Assembly: GCF_008831285.2 (NCBI RefSeq) | Contig: NC_045138.2 | Coordinates: forward strand, 8,835,205-8,899,204 | Direction: 5' to 3' | Length of the DNA: 64,000 bases | Source: Nymphaea colorata | Taxonomy: Eukaryota > Streptophyta > Magnoliopsida > Nymphaeales > Nymphaeaceae | In this document: in pieces, positions 53,400-63,345 of the stretch | How positions within the stretch are numbered: the stretch's first letter is position 1 | How the letters are laid out: each line of letters begins with the position of its first letter | Position numbers and translations under genes: made by a program | The notes under the pieces: generated by a model | The model's database searches: none | What the model saw: only the letters and a program-made list of their open reading frames with translations | What the model was told of the DNA's origin: nothing

Positions 53400-54779
53400 C
53401 AGCACTTAAGTTGTATAGAGTTTTGTACATGGACAACTTGCCTTTTGCATCCAACCCGTGGCACTCTTTTTGTGAACAAATACACAACTACCGCACCAAC
53501 CCTGCTGGAAGCAAGCCTCCAAGAACTTTATTGAACAGAAATATATACAAAAACAAAATCGGCCCAAAACCAGCCAGACAAAGGCACCAAAAAATGACCA
53601 AACGGAACAAATTTGGGAACCAAAAATAAAACAGAAAACCAAAAACAAGGACAGAAATTATAGATTCTGATAGCCTCAAAACCATCTCCTTCGCCGGACT
53701 TGCCTTGGATATTTTCATCCTGCAAATAAACTCCCTAAGGCTGTTCACTGCCACTGACACTAGAGCCATGCCTTCACTTCGACCTTTAAGCCACCCTAAA
53801 CATTCCCTCTCATTGGAAATGAGAAGGATGAAGAAGCCATGTCGTTGTGGCTTAAGCATCTCCAACGGCGATAAAGACCAACATTCTCAGGAAAAAGCCA
53901 CTCAGTGGTGCTGATATGAGTGCTTGAGAAATTCACCTTTTCACTCTTGTCCCTGCAGCAATATGCCACAACTGATTTGTTGTTGTCTGAAATAGTGGCA
54001 GGTTGAATACAAAAAGCATGTTTTACTCCTATCTCCGGCCACTAGTCGTGAACAATACCCGTGGCCAGCCACAACCAAATCGACTCGAGCTGCTCATGGT
54101 TAGCCCCATGGCAAGAATCTTCACAAATTTTCCATGTACCTCAGGCAGCAATTTCCGCTGAAATAGGCACTTCACCACAAATTTTGCTGCTTCTCAAAAC
54201 CCATGTGTGCCAAATGACCACATGGGACATAAATATGCCGGTATTTGCTAACCCAACCCCTTTTGAAACTACAGTTGAACCACCATTTCAGCTACTGCAC
54301 AAAGCTAGTGTGAGAAATCTGCATCTGGTTGAATTGACTAGCAATAAAGCCCCAAATCATGTTCACAACATTACACCAAAAGAATAAGTGATCCACAGTG
54401 CTTCCTTCAAGCACAACAAGGAACCATTGGCCATTGGCACCCTTCTCCTTTGGACCCAGTCCAAGGTGGGCAATCTGTACGAGGCAACCACGTAGAGAAA
54501 CCAGATGGCATCCTTATTGTAGATCAAATTTCACTACTTCTCCTTTGGGTGAGTAGAGCTGATAAGCTGCCAGACAACTTGCGTTCTCGCATTATCCACC
54601 CTCTTTGCCATGCAGACTAGACGGTTCCGAGTTCCGACTAGAGCCCAACAAAAGCCTCGTGACTAGGGCTGCACAGAGCCGAGTCAAGCTCGAGCTTGCC
54701 CAGCTCGAGCTCCGAGTTCCGACCTCTTTGCCATGCAGACTAGACGGTTCCGACTAGAGCCCAACAAAAGTCTCGTGAC
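53400..54779 (-). mobile_element. LINE, 3' part (zinc-binding RT tail), left of the hAT insertion
   Basis: On the minus strand a decayed non-LTR retrotransposon continues from 63345-62681. At 54600-54330 it shows a zf-RVT-like region: WQLISSTHPK, AIWFLYVVASYRLPTLDWVQ and STVDHLFFWCNVVNMIWG, with stops. At 53865-53488 is a hydrophobic tail ending LGGLLPAGLV that resembles LINE 3' ends. The exact 3' end and any poly(A) tail are not clear. Confidence 0.7.
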
Positions 54780-54800
54780 TAGGGCTGCACAGAGCCGAGT
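54599..54800. repeat. Tandem duplication across the left border of hAT-1
   Basis: About 124 bp are repeated: 54599-54722 and from 54723 on both begin CTCTTTGCCATGCAGACTAG and run through GAGCCCAACAAAAG, CTCGTGACTAGGGCTGC and ACAGAGCCGAGT. Each copy thus holds LINE flank plus the first bases of the hAT end, so a piece of the border was duplicated after the hAT inserted. Confidence 0.88.
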
Positions 54801-55477
54801 CGAGCTCGAGCTGGGCAGCTCGACTCGAACTAGCTGCCTAACACAAGCTCGAGCTCGACTCAATTAACAAAGTCGAGCTCGACTCTGTTAACTCGGGTAC
54901 ACAAAAGTTCTTGCTCGATTAAGATTGATTAAGTGGTTCTTTAAATAATTGTAAAGTTGGGTAGTTTTCCGTTAATTAGTTTCCATTGAAATTGCACAGA
55001 TATTTTTAATTAGTTTCCATTGAAATTGCACAGAAACTTTATCTATTGGTTCAAATGTTGTGTGTGCCTGTTTTAGCCCTTTTGTATGTTTCTTTCATGG
55101 CTAAGAATACACAAGAAATTAAGTTTTAAAGAATCCTCACGAAAGTAACTTATCAAATTTTACAATATTTTAAGTTTTTAACACAATATTATCAAAATCT
55201 TGAAAAGCATCATACCATGATTCCTGCAATAACAAAAGCAATCCAATCTAGTATTTTTCATGCCTGCAACTTTCTCATTTTCTGAATAGTTCCTCCAGCC
55301 CTTATAAATACAAATCTAAGTCCTGAAAAATACTATGTAGCTGCCATCCTTTTCAGAAAAGGAACCATATAATAACGAGCTGCCACTGTCAAACGTGAAG
55401 GTTGTTGTTTGTTGTCTAGTACAACTAAATTGCAAATCCCAAAGGTTTCTTATAACATCCAAATAATCCAGGCTTGC

Positions 55478-55735
55478 TCAACCTATTGCTGTTAAAATCT
55501 GCAACTCAAGTGCAACACGGAAAGTATCCAGAACCTCTCTGACATCAGCAGAAACCTGAAAATACATTTTAAACACAACAGGAGCACTGTTAAAGACCAC
55601 ACTTAGAGAACTATATTCTAAATGAAGCCAAAATAGCTAGAAGTGTTAGAAGCAACAGCTCCCAGAGAACTGCATATCAAAAGAATATCACCTCGATGCT
55701 TGTGGGGACATAGTTCTCCTTGTCAATAGTAATAA
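55478..55735 (-). pseudogene. Two exons and 3' end of an unrecognised captured gene
   Basis: On the minus strand exon a (55735-55692) encodes VITIDKENYVPTSIE after an AG acceptor (TATATGCAG). A 136-bp intron follows with GTGATA donor and TTTTCAG acceptor. Exon b (55555-55478) encodes VSADVREVLDTFRVALELQ, then a few codons and TGA. The exons are in phase and the sequence looks protein-like, so this is probably the end of a real gene carried by hAT-1. I do not recognise the family. Sequence to about 55250 could be its 3' untranslated region. A separate intact host copy should exist elsewhere. Confidence 0.5.
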
Positions 55736-56468
55736 CTGCATATAGGGAACTAAATAGCATGAATTGTTATTTATGCCCCAAAAAACCAAAAAATCTGCTA
55801 AGGATCACCGTGGAACAAAACGTTAAGCGGGATAGGCTGATAGCTTATTCAAAAAAGCCAGTTTCATCACAAAACAAACGTCAGCAAAACTGTATGTTCC
55901 CATAATAAGATCATAAGTAATCATCGGCTAGCATAAATAGCATGTTCAAATAGAATCAATCCCAATTCTCAGAACAAAAATTTGTTCCCCAATTTCATTT
56001 AGAATTGACCTCATTACAGACAATCATGCAAACAGAAACAACTCGTTCAATTGACAAATAACTGTTGCCAAACAGAAGCACTGGACCTTCATGAGGCATC
56101 AATTTCCTGTTAACCACATAGCTATATATCAAACAAACGACGTTGTTTGAACCTACAAAATCTTTAGAAAGTAAACTCCAAGGAATACTCGATTGAATGG
56201 CACCAAATATTCACAACTATAAATACACAACTACACAAAGAAAGAACCAAAAAAACCAAGAAAAGTCGAGTACCATCTAAATGTTGAAATTAATTAGAAA
56301 AATGACAAAATCAACGTGAAAAATACAGTTAAATATAGGGAAGATAAACGAAAGCACAAATAACCACAGTTAGAAGCAACAACATCAGCTCAAACAAACT
56401 ATAAGCCCCACAATTGCGATTGACTCATATTAAAATGACAAAATCTAACAAGGAGAAAATGGACAGAC

Positions 56469-56612
56469 CTTGAGGCTCTCGACGACGCCAGGAACGACCT
56501 CGTGCTCGAGCCCTAAATACTCTCCCTCAGTATTCTCCCTGATGACGACGACGCCAGGAACGACCTCGTGCTGGAGCCCTAAATACTCCTTCCTCAGCTG
56601 CACGTTCAACGA
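56469..56612 (-). pseudogene. NAD-dependent isocitrate dehydrogenase (regulatory subunit) gene fragment
   Basis: The minus strand reads SLNVQLRKE, then [13 protein letters not shown], then [26 protein letters not shown], followed by a GT donor (AAG|GTCTGT). SLNVQLRKE and [25 protein letters not shown] are conserved blocks of the mitochondrial NAD-IDH regulatory subunit of the TCA cycle. The roughly 30 residues that normally lie between them are replaced by a second, partial copy of the later block. The result is a rearranged piece, not a working gene. It lies in hAT-1, so it was most likely captured. Confidence 0.8.
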
Positions 56613-57014
56613 ACATACGAGGGTTTCATTTGGGGAAAAAAAATTGATACGATATAGAGAACAAAAGGGCAAAGAGGTACTCACTGGCCCACTGCAACGA
56701 GAGACGAAGAGAGCTGCCGATGTTTTACCAGGGTCACCAGCGAGAACAACGCTTTGGCTTGTCTCTGCAGCGCTGTTTGCTGATTAAATCGAATGGCTGC
56801 TCCTTCCTCAGCTGCACGTTCAACGAACATACGAGGGTTTCATTTGGGGAAAAAAATTTTGATACGATATAGAGAACAAAAGGGCAAAGAGGTACTCACT
56901 GGCCCACTGCAATGAGAGACGAAGAGAGCTGCCGATGTTTTACCAGGGTCACCAGCGAGAACAACGCTTCGGCTTGTCTCTGCAGCACTGTTTGCTGATT
57001 AAATCGAATGGCTG
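56587..57014. repeat. Tandem duplication of about 213 bp beside the IDH fragment
   Basis: Copy 1 (about 56587-56800) and copy 2 (about 56801-57014) both start CCTTCCTCAGCTGCACGTTC and contain CGAACATACGAGGGTTTCAT, GGCAAAGAGGTACTCACTGG, GCTGCCGATGTTTTACCAGG and TTTGCTGATTAAATCGAATG. They differ at only a few bases. The repeat includes the SLNVQLR codons, so part of the IDH-like exon is present twice. Confidence 0.93.
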
Positions 57015-57174
57015 CTACTGCGGTAGAAGAGAAGGCGAGCTGAGGGAGAGAACGTCAGAGGAGGTAATGAAAAACACAAAGAAAGAGAGAGACGTACAGT
57101 ACCTAAATACCCCTAACAGTCAAAATGTTTAAAAAATTAAGAACGTGAAGGAAGGGGTATTGTGGGCAGTCAAC

Positions 57175-57415
57175 ACTTTTGCTCCTCTCTCCCTTTCCTT
57201 TCCTTCCCAATCCGTCCGATTTGGGAGGGATTGCATTTACACTACACAATCCTTTCCTTTCCCTCCCTTCCTTTTCCCTCCCCTCCCAACCAAACACACT
57301 TTGCCCCTTTCCCTCCCTTTCCCTCCTCTTTAGTTAGCCAACCAAACAAAGGAGGGATTGTTCAATCCCTCCATTTCCTTCCCTTTCCCTCCAACCAAAC
57401 AGGCCCTAGAAGTCG
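57175..57415. mobile_element. Possible pyrimidine-rich MITE end
   Basis: A CCCTTTCCCTCC-rich stretch, with the text ACCAAACA-type repeats, ends in CCAACCAAACAGGCCC. The reverse of that end (GGGCCTGTTTGGTTGG) is typical of plant MITEs. The other terminus is not clear, so only one end is supported. Confidence 0.35.
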
Positions 57416-57777
57416 AGAAGAGAAAGAGCAGACGGAAGAGAGAGATTATGTTGAAAAACAAGATAAAGACGTATATATATGTTGCCCTCGGTAAAAAACA
57501 GTTTTAACCCTAAACGGTGAACCGGTTTGAGGTACCGTACCGGTAAGGCTGGGCATCAGGCCGGCCCGGCCCGAAAAAATTGGCAAACCCTGAGCCCATT
57601 AACACTGATAAGATTAGAAAGAATAATCTTTGATTAACATCGAAATCTGCCCTAACTCCTCTTTATATAGACTAGAGGAGAGAGAGAAGTTACAAGAGAA
57701 CCATCTAAAGGAAAAGTTATTACAAAAGTACCCTCTTAAACCTAAAACTGAATATAAACACATCTTAACACTCCCCC

Positions 57778-60700
57778 TCAAGTTGGAGCGTATATGTCAA
57801 ATAGGCTCAACTTGGAACAGCAGCTTTGGAATGGTCCCCTTGCAAGAGCCTTAGTAAAGATATCAGCCGTTTGCCCTGTAGTTGAAATGTGTGAGGTACT
57901 TACAAACCCCTTTTGAATCATGTCTCTAGTATAGTGACAATCTACTTCAACATGCTTGGTTCTTTCATGAAAAGCCGGATTATTAGCAATAAACAGTGCA
58001 GCTTTGTTATCACATAACAGTTGCATAGGAAGAGGCACTTCGACAGTAAGATCCAACATCAGGGATCTAACCCACATAACTTCAGCAGTACCCTGAGCCA
58101 TAGCTCTATACTCAGATTCTGCACTTGATCTGGCAACCACAGTTTGCTTCTTACTCTTCCATGTAACCAAGTTGGATCCAATAAACACACAAAATCCAGT
58201 AGTGGATTTTCTGTCCGAGGGGCATCCTGCATAGTCGGCATCAACATACACAGATATAGTGAGTGAGGTACCATTCTGAAAGAAGAGTCCCGTTCCTGGT
58301 GAATTCTTTAGATACCTAAGAATCATCATAGCAGCATCCCAATGAACTTTCTTGGGCTTATCCATAAATTGACTCACTCTGCTAACAGCATAGGCAATGT
58401 CAGGTCGAGTAACAGTGATGTATAGGAGCTTCCCAACAATCCCTCTATACTGTCTCGCATCAACATCTTCAGTATCATCATCATACAAGCAGGTATTGAT
58501 ATCCATAGGCGTGGATGCAGGCCGACACCCCAGCATCCCTGTCTCTTGCAAAACATCAGTAACGTATTTCCTCTGGCACATGATAAGGCCCTTTTGATTT
58601 CTGGCAAACTCAATACCAAGGAAATAACGTAGTTCACCAAGGTCCTTGGTGACAAAGTGTTGTCCAAGGACATCCTTGATGTTGGAAATCCCTTGATCAT
58701 CATCCCCTGTAACAATGATATCATCAACATAGACAAGAACTATCACCGTACCTGTAGAAGTCTTCTTGACAAAGAGGGAATGGTCGGCCGAAGAACGTCT
58801 GAAGCCCTCATTCTCAATATTCTCTGACAATTTCTGAAACCAAGCTCGAGGACTCTGTTTCAGACCATAAATCGCCTTTCGCAATCTGCACACTTTCTGA
58901 CACTCCCCCTCAGCAACAAACCCTGGTGGTTGCTGCATATACACTTCTTCATGTAAGTCACCATAGAGAAAGGCATTTTTGACATCAAGCTGTGAGAGGG
59001 ACCAATTCTTGCTGACAGCCACAGCAAGGAGAATCCGTAAAGAAGCATGTCGTGCCACAGGAGAGAAGGTATCATAATAATCAACCCCATAAGTTTGGGT
59101 ATAGCCTTTTGCAACCAGACGAGCCTTATATCTGTCAATACTGCCATCTGCTCTGTATTTGATAGTAAAGACCCATCGGCAACCAACAATGGCTGCATCA
59201 GCTGAAGGAGTAACAAGTGTCCAGGTGCCTCTAGACTGAAGAGCATCCATCTCTTCTTGCATAGCTGCTGCCCATTTGGGATCAGAGAGAGCATCCATGG
59301 GATTCTGTGGAAGAGCAATAGCCGACAGCCCCTTGACAAACTGTCGGTACATAGGGGTGAGTCTATCCATGGATACATGACCAGAGATAGGATGCAAAGT
59401 GCAACTGCGTTTGCCTTTCCTCTGAGCAATGGACATATCAAGTTCATTAGGAGCATGAACATGCTCGTGACATTCTCCTATGTCATCATTACATAAACAA
59501 TTGTCAGTTGAGTTTGTGTCAGAAATTACCTTGGGCGTGCTGGGTGAAGGCACAGGTGCACATTGAACAGGCGCAACAGGTTTAGTACGACGTTGGTAGA
59601 CAGCCCCAAAACGTGGATCAACTGGGTTTGGACAACTCATGAGAGGTAGAGGAAATTGGACTTCATCATTTAATTCAGGCGCCCTTAATTGAGTTCCATT
59701 TGGGGAGAAGAAAGAGGTTGATTCAAAAAATGTAACATCAGCACTCACATAATACCGACGAGTAGAAGGATCATAACATCGATATCCCTTTTGAGTGCGG
59801 GAATAACCAACAAAGATCGTTTTGATGGCCCGCGGAGACAACTTATCTCGCCCAGGACCAAGCAACTGAACAAAGGCAACACATCCAAAAACACGAGGTG
59901 GAACAGAAAACAAGTCTCTGTCAGGAAAGAGGACAGAGATAGGAATAAGGTCTCCCAGCACAGATGACGGCATACGATTAATAAGATAGCATGCTGTGAG
60001 AACAGCATCTCCCCAGTAAGAATGGGGAACATGGCTATGTATGATAATGGTTCTGGCAACATCAAGAATATGACGGTGTTTCCGTTCAGCAACCCCATTT
60101 TGTTGGGAGGTATAGGCACAAGAAGTTTGGTGGATGATACCCTTATCCCTGAAAAATTGTTCCAAAGAGGAAGCACAGAACTCAAGAGCATTGTCAGAGC
60201 GCACAATTTTGACACAAGTATCAAACTGAGTCAGAATTTCATTGATAAAATTTTTGATTACATGACCCACTTCAGATTTATGCTTCATAAGAAAAACCCA
60301 ACTAACACGACTATGGTCATCGACCGCAACAAGATAATATCGATGACCTTGAAGATCAGGTGTACGACTCGGACCCCAAACATCAAAATGAAGTAACTCA
60401 AACACAGAATGGCTACTTCGACTGGGCCGCGGAGGAAAGGATGACCGATGGTGTTTGCCCAACTGACAAGACTCGCATTGAAAAGAAGACTTAGGAGACA
60501 GCTGAGGAAGAACATGCAGTAGTTTCTGAAACGGTAGATGTCCAAAACGTAAATGCCAAGTATAAGCCGAGGATGAGGACGACCCCGCAGAGGTAGACCC
60601 AGCAAAGGGAAAGGGATGCACTAGCCTGTAAAGACCTCCCTGTTCACGGCCACTGCCAATCACCCTGCCCGTCAGTATATCCTGAAACACAAGAGAAGAG

Positions 60701-60999
60701 GAGTCAAATATCGCACGACAGTTTAAATCTCTGGTAATCTGACTGATAGATAGTAGGCTATGTGGGAATTCTGGTGCATGAAGAACATGTTGCAATGGTA
60801 ATGATGAAGTAAGTTGGACCTCTCCAAGTCCAACAACTGGAGAATATTTGCCATCTGCTAGAATAACCGAGCGACCAGGTGGAGTAGGGACATAAGAAGT
60901 AAACTGTGCCTTGTCTCCACAGAGATGTGTCGATGCACCTGAATCAATGAGCCAATCTGTAGTGTCAGCCACGGCGGGCAGCGGCGAAGATGACTGCAA
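57778..60999 (-). CDS. Copia H protease-integrase-reverse transcriptase-RNase H polyprotein, open
   Basis: An uninterrupted frame of about 1073 codons encodes all pol activities of a Ty1/copia element. The protease active site DSGAS is at about residues 18-22. The integrase zinc finger lies around 148-190 (HLRFGH, CESCQLGKHH), and the integrase acidic triad around DVWGPS (about 203), SDNALEF (about 267) and NGVAERKH (about 300). The RT catalytic YVDD is at about 755 with [18 protein letters not shown] before it. RNase H has DADYAG (about 920) and [10 protein letters not shown]. The first codon given is TTG; the frame stays open further upstream into the leader with no obvious ATG. How or whether it is translated is unclear. 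No lesion is visible, unlike every other element here. Confidence 0.93.
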   Translation of the reverse strand: MQSSSPLPAVADTTDWLIDSGASTHLCGDKAQFTSYVPTPPGRSVILADGKYSPVVGLGEVQLTSSLPLQHVLHAPEFPHSLLSISQITRDLNCRAIFDSSSLVFQDILTGRVIGSGREQGGLYRLVHPFPFAGSTSAGSSSSSAYTWHLRFGHLPFQKLLHVLPQLSPKSSFQCESCQLGKHHRSSFPPRPSRSSHSVFELLHFDVWGPSRTPDLQGHRYYLVAVDDHSRVSWVFLMKHKSEVGHVIKNFINEILTQFDTCVKIVRSDNALEFCASSLEQFFRDKGIIHQTSCAYTSQQNGVAERKHRHILDVARTIIIHSHVPHSYWGDAVLTACYLINRMPSSVLGDLIPISVLFPDRDLFSVPPRVFGCVAFVQLLGPGRDKLSPRAIKTIFVGYSRTQKGYRCYDPSTRRYYVSADVTFFESTSFFSPNGTQLRAPELNDEVQFPLPLMSCPNPVDPRFGAVYQRRTKPVAPVQCAPVPSPSTPKVISDTNSTDNCLCNDDIGECHEHVHAPNELDMSIAQRKGKRSCTLHPISGHVSMDRLTPMYRQFVKGLSAIALPQNPMDALSDPKWAAAMQEEMDALQSRGTWTLVTPSADAAIVGCRWVFTIKYRADGSIDRYKARLVAKGYTQTYGVDYYDTFSPVARHASLRILLAVAVSKNWSLSQLDVKNAFLYGDLHEEVYMQQPPGFVAEGECQKVCRLRKAIYGLKQSPRAWFQKLSENIENEGFRRSSADHSLFVKKTSTGTVIVLVYVDDIIVTGDDDQGISNIKDVLGQHFVTKDLGELRYFLGIEFARNQKGLIMCQRKYVTDVLQETGMLGCRPASTPMDINTCLYDDDTEDVDARQYRGIVGKLLYITVTRPDIAYAVSRVSQFMDKPKKVHWDAAMMILRYLKNSPGTGLFFQNGTSLTISVYVDADYAGCPSDRKSTTGFCVFIGSNLVTWKSKKQTVVARSSAESEYRAMAQGTAEVMWVRSLMLDLTVEVPLPMQLLCDNKAALFIANNPAFHERTKHVEVDCHYTRDMIQKGFVSTSHISTTGQTADIFTKALARGPFQSCCSKLSLFDIYAPT

Positions 61000-61007
61000 C
61001 AGCTGAC

Positions 61008-61103
61008 GGAGGCGTCGGGCGGAGAAGACAGCGACGGGCGGAGGCGTCGGGTGGAGAGGTCAGCGACGGGCGGAGGCGTCGGGTGGAGAGGTCAGCGACG
61101 GGC
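61008..61103. repeat. Three 32-bp tandem units in the leader of copia H
   Basis: Units at 61008-61039, 61040-61071 and 61072-61103 each start GGAGGCGTCGGG and end CAGCGACGGGC; units 2 and 3 are identical and unit 1 differs at a few positions. They lie in the remnant leader next to the gag deletion point. Confidence 0.9.
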
Positions 61104-62680
61104 GGAGATGGGTGGACACGAGCGGGTGGAGGAAGCGCAGCGATGGGCGCGGTCAGGCGGCGGGCGGCGCCGCTCAATCGGCGCGCCAAGGAGGAGGAGA
61201 CGGCTGCTGCTCTGATACCATGATAAGATTAGAAAGAATAATCTTTGATTAACATCGAAATCTGCCCTAACTCCTCTTTATATAGACTAGAGGAGAGAGA
61301 GAAGTTACAAGAGAACCATCTAAAGGAAAAGTTATTACAAAAGTACCCTCTTAAACCTAAAACTGAATATAAACACATCTTAACAAACACTACCGGGCCA
61401 GCCCGAGACCCAGCCCGTTTGTAACCGGGCCGGGCCGATGAACTATCGGGCCTCGGGCTTGAAATTACGCCCGAGGCCCGGCCCGGCCCAATTATTGACG
61501 GGCCTGGTGTTGGGCCGCACCGGGCTTCCCTCTTGCTACTGTCGTGAACGGCCTTGCTGCTACCGTGAAGGGCCTCCTGCTGCTGCCGTGCCGTGAAGGG
61601 TCTCACTTTCAAGCCTTTCTCCCTTCTTTTTCCGTTGTTTTTTCCTCCCCCGCTTTTCATTTGCAAGCGAACACTCCACGGGTTCTTGTTGGCCATACAT
61701 TCCCTCTTCAATTTGATGACTGGTTGCAATGCGAGGTTGTTGTGCAAGACAGACAACAAAAGCAGGATGTTGTTTGGCTAGGCAGTTGAGAGTGAGACTC
61801 AATGCCTCTGCCTCTGTTGTAGTATGATAGAAGTAGAAGAGGCGGAAGGAAGACATACCTCTCACCCTCTGTGTTCTTGGTTCTTTCCCCCTTTCCTTGG
61901 TTGTTAGAATGATGGAGATAAAAAGGAGAAGAAAGTCAGATGAAGAATCACTCGTCATCATCAAAGTACTCACCAGAGGAAACAGCCGGAGGGGATTGTG
62001 ATCCACAAAACAGCAAATTTCTGAAAACCCAAACCCCAACCTCAATCCGAACAGAGCGGACTGCTCATCCCACGCAACCTCCACTCTTCTGGCGTCCTCT
62101 TCACCTGCCACTTCCCATCACCAACCTTTGTTGGCGTCCTCTTCACTGCCAGTTTGCCACTTCCCAGTGGCGATGGCAGATTCCTCATCCCCCGCAACCT
62201 CCACTTACTCTCCCTCCCCACAACTTTCCCTCTCTACCGCCTTCGACCTAACCTCTATTTTTTTTTAGATAGTCGGGTTTATCGGGCCGCCGACGGTAAC
62301 ATGTTCAAGCCCGAACCCGGCCCGTTAAAGTAACGGGTCGGTCGAGCCCGATAAAACGGGCCCGATAACTAATTTTTCTAAGCCCAGGCCTGGGCCCGAA
62401 CCGGGTCGGGTATCGGGTACCTGGCGGCGGCCCGGCCCTGTGCCCAGGCTTACGTACCGGTTTATACGATTCAGTTATAAACGAGTCGAGTCGAGTTTAA
62501 ACGAGTCGAGTCGAGTTTAAACGAGTCGAGTTCTTGAAACTCGAACTCGACTCGTTTATAGTTTCGAGTTTAAGTGTGAGCTCGAACTCGACTCATTTAT
62601 AAATGAGTCGAGCTCGAGCCGAGCTTTCTCGAGCGAGTTCGAGTCGAGCCCGAGTTGGCTCGACTCGTTGTGCAGCCCTA

Positions 62681-63345
62681 CTCGTGACGTCTTGATCTTG
62701 GAGGGCATTGTTAAATTGTGTGAGCAAAATAATGTTCGAGTTAAAAATTTCTACCACCAATCCATGTAGCTCGCCAACAAAAACACTGATCTCCTCCATA
62801 GTAGGCCATTTAAGATGCTCCTACCAACCCAATTATCAACCCAGAACCGAATGTTCCCCTCGTCAATACTCTACTTGACATGATGAGCAAGGCCGTGTCA
62901 AGACTTTCATATATCAGGGAAGAACTAGGATGCCCAAGGACGGCCACTGAGGGACCAAAGGCTATGGAAATATGAGTATTTACAATGCATGATCTTAGCC
63001 CATGTTGCTTCTTTTTGTTAAGTTTGGGTGCCCAAAGGCCTCTTCTTGCTATAGACATCTCTTCTATGCTCATGAGGCCCACACCTTCCTCCTCAATGGA
63101 CCAACAAATAGTGTTCCATGCAACATAGTGACTGTCATGTCCATCTCTGTTACCTACCCATAGAAATGTTAACGAAATTGGTAAGGAGGATAAGGACAAC
63201 AAATCCACTGGAGAGAAATCGACAATCAGAAAATGGATGTCGAGCTGGTAACAAAAGGTTGTGATCGAATGAGAAAAGTAGAAAAAACAGAAAATAAGAA
63301 AAGGCAACAATCTTGGGATAAAATGAAGTTTTCATCTAATCTAGG
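62681..63345 (-). mobile_element. LINE reverse transcriptase region, right of the hAT insertion
   Basis: The minus strand at 63310-62810 encodes a LINE RT tail: ISLTFLWVGNRDGHDSHYVA, WNTICWSIEEEGVGLMSIEEM and IARRGLWAPKL, then a decayed region leading to the hAT-1 duplication at 62681. It continues beyond hAT-1 at 54779 and leftwards with the zinc-binding tail. The frame is degraded. Confidence 0.72.

Follow-up and report, generated by a model that had tools for sequence, protein, structure and literature searches.

The locus analyzed here raises the question of how a transposon of Nymphaea colorata came to hold pieces of several host genes, and whether the chimera that they form has a function. 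We examined a window of 64,000 nucleotides (C1:8835205-8899204) and searched the genome (408 Mb in 783 contigs). The letters around the element were read directly, and its ends, target-site copies and long terminal repeats (LTRs) were verified by script. In the best overall explanation, to which we give a probability of about 90%, the locus holds a non-autonomous Pack-hAT that gained pieces of three host genes by template switching and is now a non-coding relic.

An outer hAT element with nested insertions

The outer element, referred to as element A, extends from 54780 to 62680 on the minus strand, which is the sense of its leader and captured pieces, and measures 7901 bp with its nested insertions. 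It opens with TAGGGCTGCACAGAGCCGAGTCGAG at 54780 and closes with CGTTGTGCAGCCCTA at 62680, and its terminal inverted repeats (TIRs) are 12 bp long (TAGGGCTGCACA/TGTGCAGCCCTA). Directly outside both ends lie plus-strand copies of CTCGTGAC (54772-54779 and 62681-62688), which the script check found to be identical at 8/8 positions. An 8-bp target-site duplication (TSD) beside short TIRs, a feature of hAT membership, is thus present in element A. The preliminary description had bounded the element by a perfect 8-bp duplication and inverted ends, and both stand, but the right end lies at 62680 and not at 57543. A right boundary at 57543 was rejected, as this position is the left edge of a nested second hAT; at 57543-57551 we found neither a CTCGTGAC-like string nor an inverted end of A. 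The string CTCGTGAC occurs six times in the window, versus 0.71 times expected in shuffles; two of the occurrences are the TSD copies of A and one (54656-54663) arose when the left junction was duplicated locally.

The 3' terminal and subterminal part of A (54780-54860, minus strand) contains the TIR and GAGTCGAG/GAGCTCGA repeats and matches the 3' end of a sister element on C4 at 80% over 80 columns. At the other end, the 5' terminal and subterminal part (62461-62680, minus strand), with the TIR and CGAGTCGAGTT repeats, matches the 5' end of family member L058 at 68% over 185 columns. The insertion site is read as a putative LINE in minus orientation, judged from reading frames on both flanks; one peptide of this flank sent to Pfam gave no domain match.

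The second hAT-like element (57544-62452, no strand assigned) has the ends TAAGGCTGGGCA/TGCCCAGGCTTA and is flanked by target-site copies CGTACCGG at 57536-57543 and 62453-62460. Inside it lies a copia-type LTR retrotransposon on the minus strand (57606-61385), assigned to the copia class by inspection, with target-site copies AACAC and a reading frame at 57778-61059. Its LTRs (57606-57770 and 61221-61385) are identical at 165/165 bases. A 302-bp MITE fragment, from a family with fuller copies of ~485 bp, occupies 57106-57407 on the minus strand. The three nested TSD pairs at the locus are intact and, by arithmetic, element A without the nested hAT and one copy of the nested target site would measure 2984 bp. 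The MITE fragment and the nested hAT and copia elements, as well as a tandemly duplicated leader (period 214-215 bp), go beyond what the preliminary description contained.

A leader common to the family

The 5' part of the interior (56608-57105, minus strand) is exon-like and has a donor-like GTGAGT by inspection. It is present twice because of a tandem duplication with a period of 214-215 bp; the two copies differ at 5/214 bases (2.3%), and a scrap of IDH (56800-56821) lies between them. This piece had been a candidate for a fourth host gene, which was dropped. We take it as a family leader, since 11 loci besides A match parts of it (~60-141 bp each in a search with 56586-57105) and a TIR-like end lies 5' of the match in 7/11. 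The matches fall mostly within 56608-56740, 56822-56955 or 56964-57104. At L048, L049, L052 and L055 the patterns gave no TIR-like 5' end; L049 shows a degenerate form by eye. Both ends were inspected at seven loci, of which A, the C4 element and L043 have a clean or 7/8 TSD; no clean or 7/8 TSD was found by hand at those on C6, C11, C1:38.05 Mb and C2.

Among the family members, the leader of the one at C2:20658851 is followed by a reading frame that we take to resemble a hAT transposase; Pfam and PDB searches with reading frames of this member gave no relevant match. The members on C6 and C11 presumably hold MACPF-like exons, for which two frames sent to Pfam gave no family match. There is a match to Tau95 (TFIIIC) in the locus of the C7 member.

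Host-gene pieces downstream of the leader

Along the minus strand, element A runs from the leader through a rearranged exon of NAD-isocitrate dehydrogenase (NAD-IDH, or IDH) with the start of intron 1, a filler, PEPC pieces and a Piezo-like intron piece to the 3' end. Alignments with the apparent donors show that A holds sense pieces of NAD-IDH, PEPC and a Piezo-like intron downstream of the family leader. The element was originally described as a Pack-type hAT that had captured at least two host genes. Its hAT ends do surround copies of host genes with donors elsewhere in the genome, two on C11 and one on C8, as in Pack-TYPE elements, and the same fusion occurs in a second hAT; capture is therefore upheld, and the donors number at least three.

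The NAD-IDH exon 1 pieces lie at 56461-56607 (minus strand). A search of the same genome for the parent IDH gene, as proposed in the preliminary description, located the intact parent exon on C11 (L003). This exon has a Pfam Iso_dh match and, for this portion alone, 202.6 bits against NCBIfam TIGR00175, a score under the cut-off that applies to the whole protein; further stop-free IDH exons occur at three places in C11:64865-70357. Compared with its parent, the exon in A has an in-frame deletion and a duplication with a 66-nt period, so that one stretch is absent and a 43-nt block is repeated at 66-nt spacing. The internal rearrangement of the IDH blocks noted earlier is thereby confirmed. Its joins have microhomologies of 3 bp (GAG) and 6 bp (TCGTCG). 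The native splice donor AAG/GTCTGT is kept at 56471-56461, and the 5' part of intron 1 (55733-56468, minus strand) was aligned to the C11 parent and the C4 element.

Between IDH and PEPC the alignment places a filler of ~16-23 nt (55710-55732, minus strand) that is common to the C4 element. The PEP-carboxylase piece (55511-55709, minus strand) consists of an exon end (55709-55692), an intron and an exon start (to 55511). Its parent at C8:19529646-19530417, 94.6% identical to A by BLAST and with exons identified as PEPcase by Pfam, was found through the search with the C4 element (best 40 of 1580) and then aligned to A. The last piece (55030-55518, minus strand) is 489 bp of an intron at C11:11328521-11329021. 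The exons on either side of this source intron resemble, we assume, a plant Piezo gene; their Pfam scores for Piezo_TM1-24 are 18.7 and 20.2 bits, below the cut-off of 28.8. PEPC and Piezo-like pieces meet in an 8-bp microhomology (55511-55518, minus strand), the string GTGTTGCA being present in both donors. What had been regarded as two in-phase exons and the stop of a single second gene must accordingly be divided: the two in-phase exon pieces are there and belong to PEPC, whereas the in-frame TAG (55485-55483) falls inside the intron piece of a third gene. We have rejected the single second gene for this reason.

The same fusion in a second hAT

Apart from A itself, the best match to the interior of A among the best 40 of 872 candidates is a sister hAT at C4:16735158-16738846. 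It is 3689 bp long, with TIR ends TAGGGGTGAACA and TGTGCAGCCTTA and target-site copies ACTACCAG/ACTACAAG that agree at 7/8 positions. The search for other copies, also proposed earlier, has thus yielded another hAT, which is bounded by separate ends and target-site copies and shares the fusion. A second copy of the whole of element A was not present among the best 40 of 872 candidates. Because 40 candidates were scored of 872 with the interior of A, and of 1580 with the C4 element, all copy numbers are lower bounds.

The C4 element matches A through the IDH intron, the filler and the start of PEPC and then runs on into further PEPC exons, followed by ~240 bp of unassigned sequence and by pieces from C3, C10 and again C3. 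Both C3 pieces are introns of a sugar-transporter gene, the second from ~0.8 kb further along the gene, and the C10 piece comes from around the last exon of a RING gene (RING ligase). As far as the alignments tell, the PEPC-C3-C10-C3 order is an interleaved copy pattern. Since the same IDH-filler-PEPC fusion is found in A and in the C4 element, it formed once and then diverged, so that a single fusion event underlies both elements. A three-way alignment of the IDH intron (A, C4 and parent; 738 gap-free columns) has 660 columns that are the same in all; the parent differs alone at 47, A at 14 and C4 at 16, and all three differ at 1.

Distances counted as substitutions only were used for timing. 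The IDH intron of A differs from the C11 parent by 7.6% (55/726 columns), and the IDH part of A from the C4 element by 4.3% (32/743). For PEPC the values are 4.0% to the parent (8/200) and 3.0% to the C4 element (6/200), and the Piezo-like intron of A differs from its C11 source by 4.7% (22/471). With the leader copies and the identical LTRs (0/165), these values suggest an order in which IDH probably came first, the split from C4 fell at about the time of the Piezo-gene piece, the tandem duplication was next and the copia insertion was recent. PEPC, the C4 split and the Piezo-gene piece are not separable in time because the standard errors are ~1%. The C4 element differs by 9.8% from the C10 donor (63/641) and by 5.3% (13/243) and 10.3% (15/145) from the C3 donor, a poor fit to a simple clock with those pieces joined last; on these distances, some joins would date back at least as far as IDH. 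Alternatively, the C4 arrangement may be the older one, with the Piezo-gene piece having replaced it in A.

Probable capture by template switching

All three captured pieces in A contain intron sequence, and capture therefore took place at the level of DNA. A gap inside a parent hAT, whether induced by a transposon or arising in replication, was probably repaired by template switching guided by microhomology, with unspliced chromosomal DNA as the source of the pieces. The 8-bp microhomology at the PEPC/Piezo join points to template switching; when breakpoint pairs were drawn at random from the two donor loci, 79/400,000 had microhomology of at least 8 bp. The junction microhomologies measure 8, 6 and 3 bp, and by eye the leader/IDH join has ~1 bp, so that long microhomology is not found at every junction. 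The IDH-PEPC chimera would then have transposed or duplicated, and in A the Piezo-gene intron would have come to follow the PEPC exon, joined at GTGTTGCA. Internal tandem duplications, the insertion of the second hAT and the recent copia insertion would have come later. Transcription from the leader could yield a chimeric RNA that is spliced but would lack a usable reading frame.

A and the C4 element together have five donors (IDH, PEPC, Piezo-like, RING ligase and sugar transporter), and the pieces of each are oriented as the leader is. Under equal odds this is, by arithmetic, a 1 in 32 outcome and is suggestive only. A transposase gene behind the leader would make the leader a promoter and exon trap. 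We put forward as a tentative and rather doubtful extension that this hAT family is a serial exon trap, in which the leader and its splice donor stay while the downstream gene module is swapped by template switching, always in leader sense. If so, the sister copies would be a readable series of capture steps.

Coding potential and rival explanations

Judged from its reading frames, element A is most likely a relic without protein function. The 112-aa open frame with the IDH blocks contains zero methionine, and within 57543-54780 the coding strand has a single ATG-initiated frame that reaches 40 codons, a 49-aa one spanning the IDH scrap and one copy of the leader, such that a coding role looks unlikely. 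In the chimera we found no open frame that begins with a start codon and conserves phase, as a functional gene would. These frames speak against the idea that splicing unites leader, IDH, PEPC and Piezo intron in the mRNA of a new protein on which selection acts, which we regard as quite improbable. It would account for the donor-like GTGAGT in the leader (by inspection), for the survival of the native IDH donor and the PEPC splice sites, for a single silent change versus the parent in 63 nt of PEPC exon and for a PEPC/Piezo join that keeps the PEPC phase (...DTFRVA/LELQILTAIG stop). However, by hand analysis the phase from IDH to PEPC is kept only via a weak, unusual acceptor in the filler, and two nested elements now separate the leader from the 5' end. 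Transcripts of the chimera might instead feed siRNAs that silence the IDH, PEPC or Piezo-like gene in trans. The sense stretches are 92-96% identical to their donors (substitutions only) and the location is nested and TE-rich, but the matched length is mostly intron, which is absent from spliced mRNA, and inverted-repeat arms within 54500-57900 are at most 21 nt, which leaves this role unlikely, if a little less so than a new protein.

The way in which the gene pieces arrived also has competing explanations. They might be later, separate insertions into a plain hAT, for example of a Helitron or Pack-MULE with the chimera, and hATs at this locus do take nested insertions (second hAT, copia and MITE). 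Yet the same IDH-PEPC fusion occurs in the C4 hAT, which has separate ends and other sequences to the right of the fusion, a by-eye look around the fusion gave no TSD or TIR, and all five donors are oriented as the leader; we consider such insertions very improbable. An assembly chimera, conceivable in a repeat-rich nested locus of a genome in 783 contigs, is hardly credible given an independent copy of the fusion on C4 whose differences from the parent are shared with A and given the intact nested TSD pairs.

Comparison with known gene-capturing elements

Element A, as a Pack-hAT, is a well-resolved further case of the known gene-capturing hATs (maize Ds, grapevine Hatvine-6 and Pack-TYPE elements), and the process itself is already known. 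In the available part of the 2011 maize Ac/Ds paper, gene fragments are described in 2 Ds2 and 9 Ds-l4 elements and capture is called rare for hATs (PMC3260210). Like A, these are non-autonomous hATs with gene fragments that include introns, and the paper mentions a compound element that bears extraneous insertions; the donor-matched examples Ds2-22 and Ds-l4-354 are presented with a fragment of one gene each, in contrast to the three donors in A and four in its C4 sister (PMC3260210). In grapevine Hatvine-6, similarly, the hAT ends enclose a variable interior, often with matches to host exons and introns. Its copies are described, in the text available, as sharing transposase coding sequence, whereas A provides a donor-by-donor record, a fusion in two elements and a common 5' leader (PMC2528002). 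The Pack-TYPE and Pack-hAT elements of maize and rice resemble A in their TIRs, 8-nt TSD and captured coding DNA, and the accessible portion of that work ties capture to similar elements inserting close by (PMC8903248). A review of plant capture mechanisms, in the part available, describes the local-insertion route for Pack-CACTA (PMC13317346). Unlike this local-insertion model (PMC8903248, as far as presented there), the microhomology at junctions and the interleaving of donors that lie on different chromosomes favour template switching for A and the C4 element. Animal Pack-TIRs come closer in this respect: the part of the report at hand gives microhomology at one or both breakpoints in 67.6% and a template-switching model, and the FoSTeST and gap-filling models share with our reading of A microhomology-guided capture, with some chimeras being multicopy (PMC8277862). 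Compared with the animal elements covered there, A is from a plant and has several donors in series (PMC8277862).

Multi-gene acquisition by cut-and-paste transposons is still modelled rather than observed. Element A and its C4 sister make capture in hATs concrete and its order partly readable, with located donors, one common fusion and a join at an 8-bp microhomology. The leader family, with its 11 other partly matching loci, allows the order of captures, any bias in their orientation and the microhomology at their junctions to be tallied.

The left junction of the hAT element is itself duplicated in the window (54595-54817). The repeat unit of 66 bp starts in flanking sequence, takes in CTCGTGAC and reaches 33 bp into the element; a second copy, 97% alike, is found at a distance of 116 bp, and between the two copies lie 16 bp of hAT subterminal sequence in inverted orientation. 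This duplication looks like a templated repair scar left by an aborted excision of the hAT element. Further inside, a truncated copy of a high-copy MITE (57106-57407; end GGGCCTGTTTGGTTGG) matches a copy on chromosome C2 at 98.6% over 286 columns. The nested copia-type element (57606-61385), whose two 165-bp LTRs are identical and which has a stop-to-stop frame of 1093 codons on the minus strand, is a recent insertion.

The sister element on C4 was viewed by eye in its surroundings (G000:C4:16734004-16744900): masked N stretches flank it on either side, and the sequence following two N stretches about 8 kb apart appears similar.

Near the leader-bearing member on C7 (L058, C7:8962082), a frame matching TFIIIC Tau95 (48.7 bits) may be either a captured or a neighbouring gene. 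Downstream of the hAT leader, the loci at C6:15.51 Mb (L051/L060) and C11:12.50 Mb (L049/L061) share long stretches, 92-95% identical, containing exons that we take to be MACPF-like. Clear target-site copies were looked for at both loci and none were found. These two loci likely represent a further captured-gene lineage.
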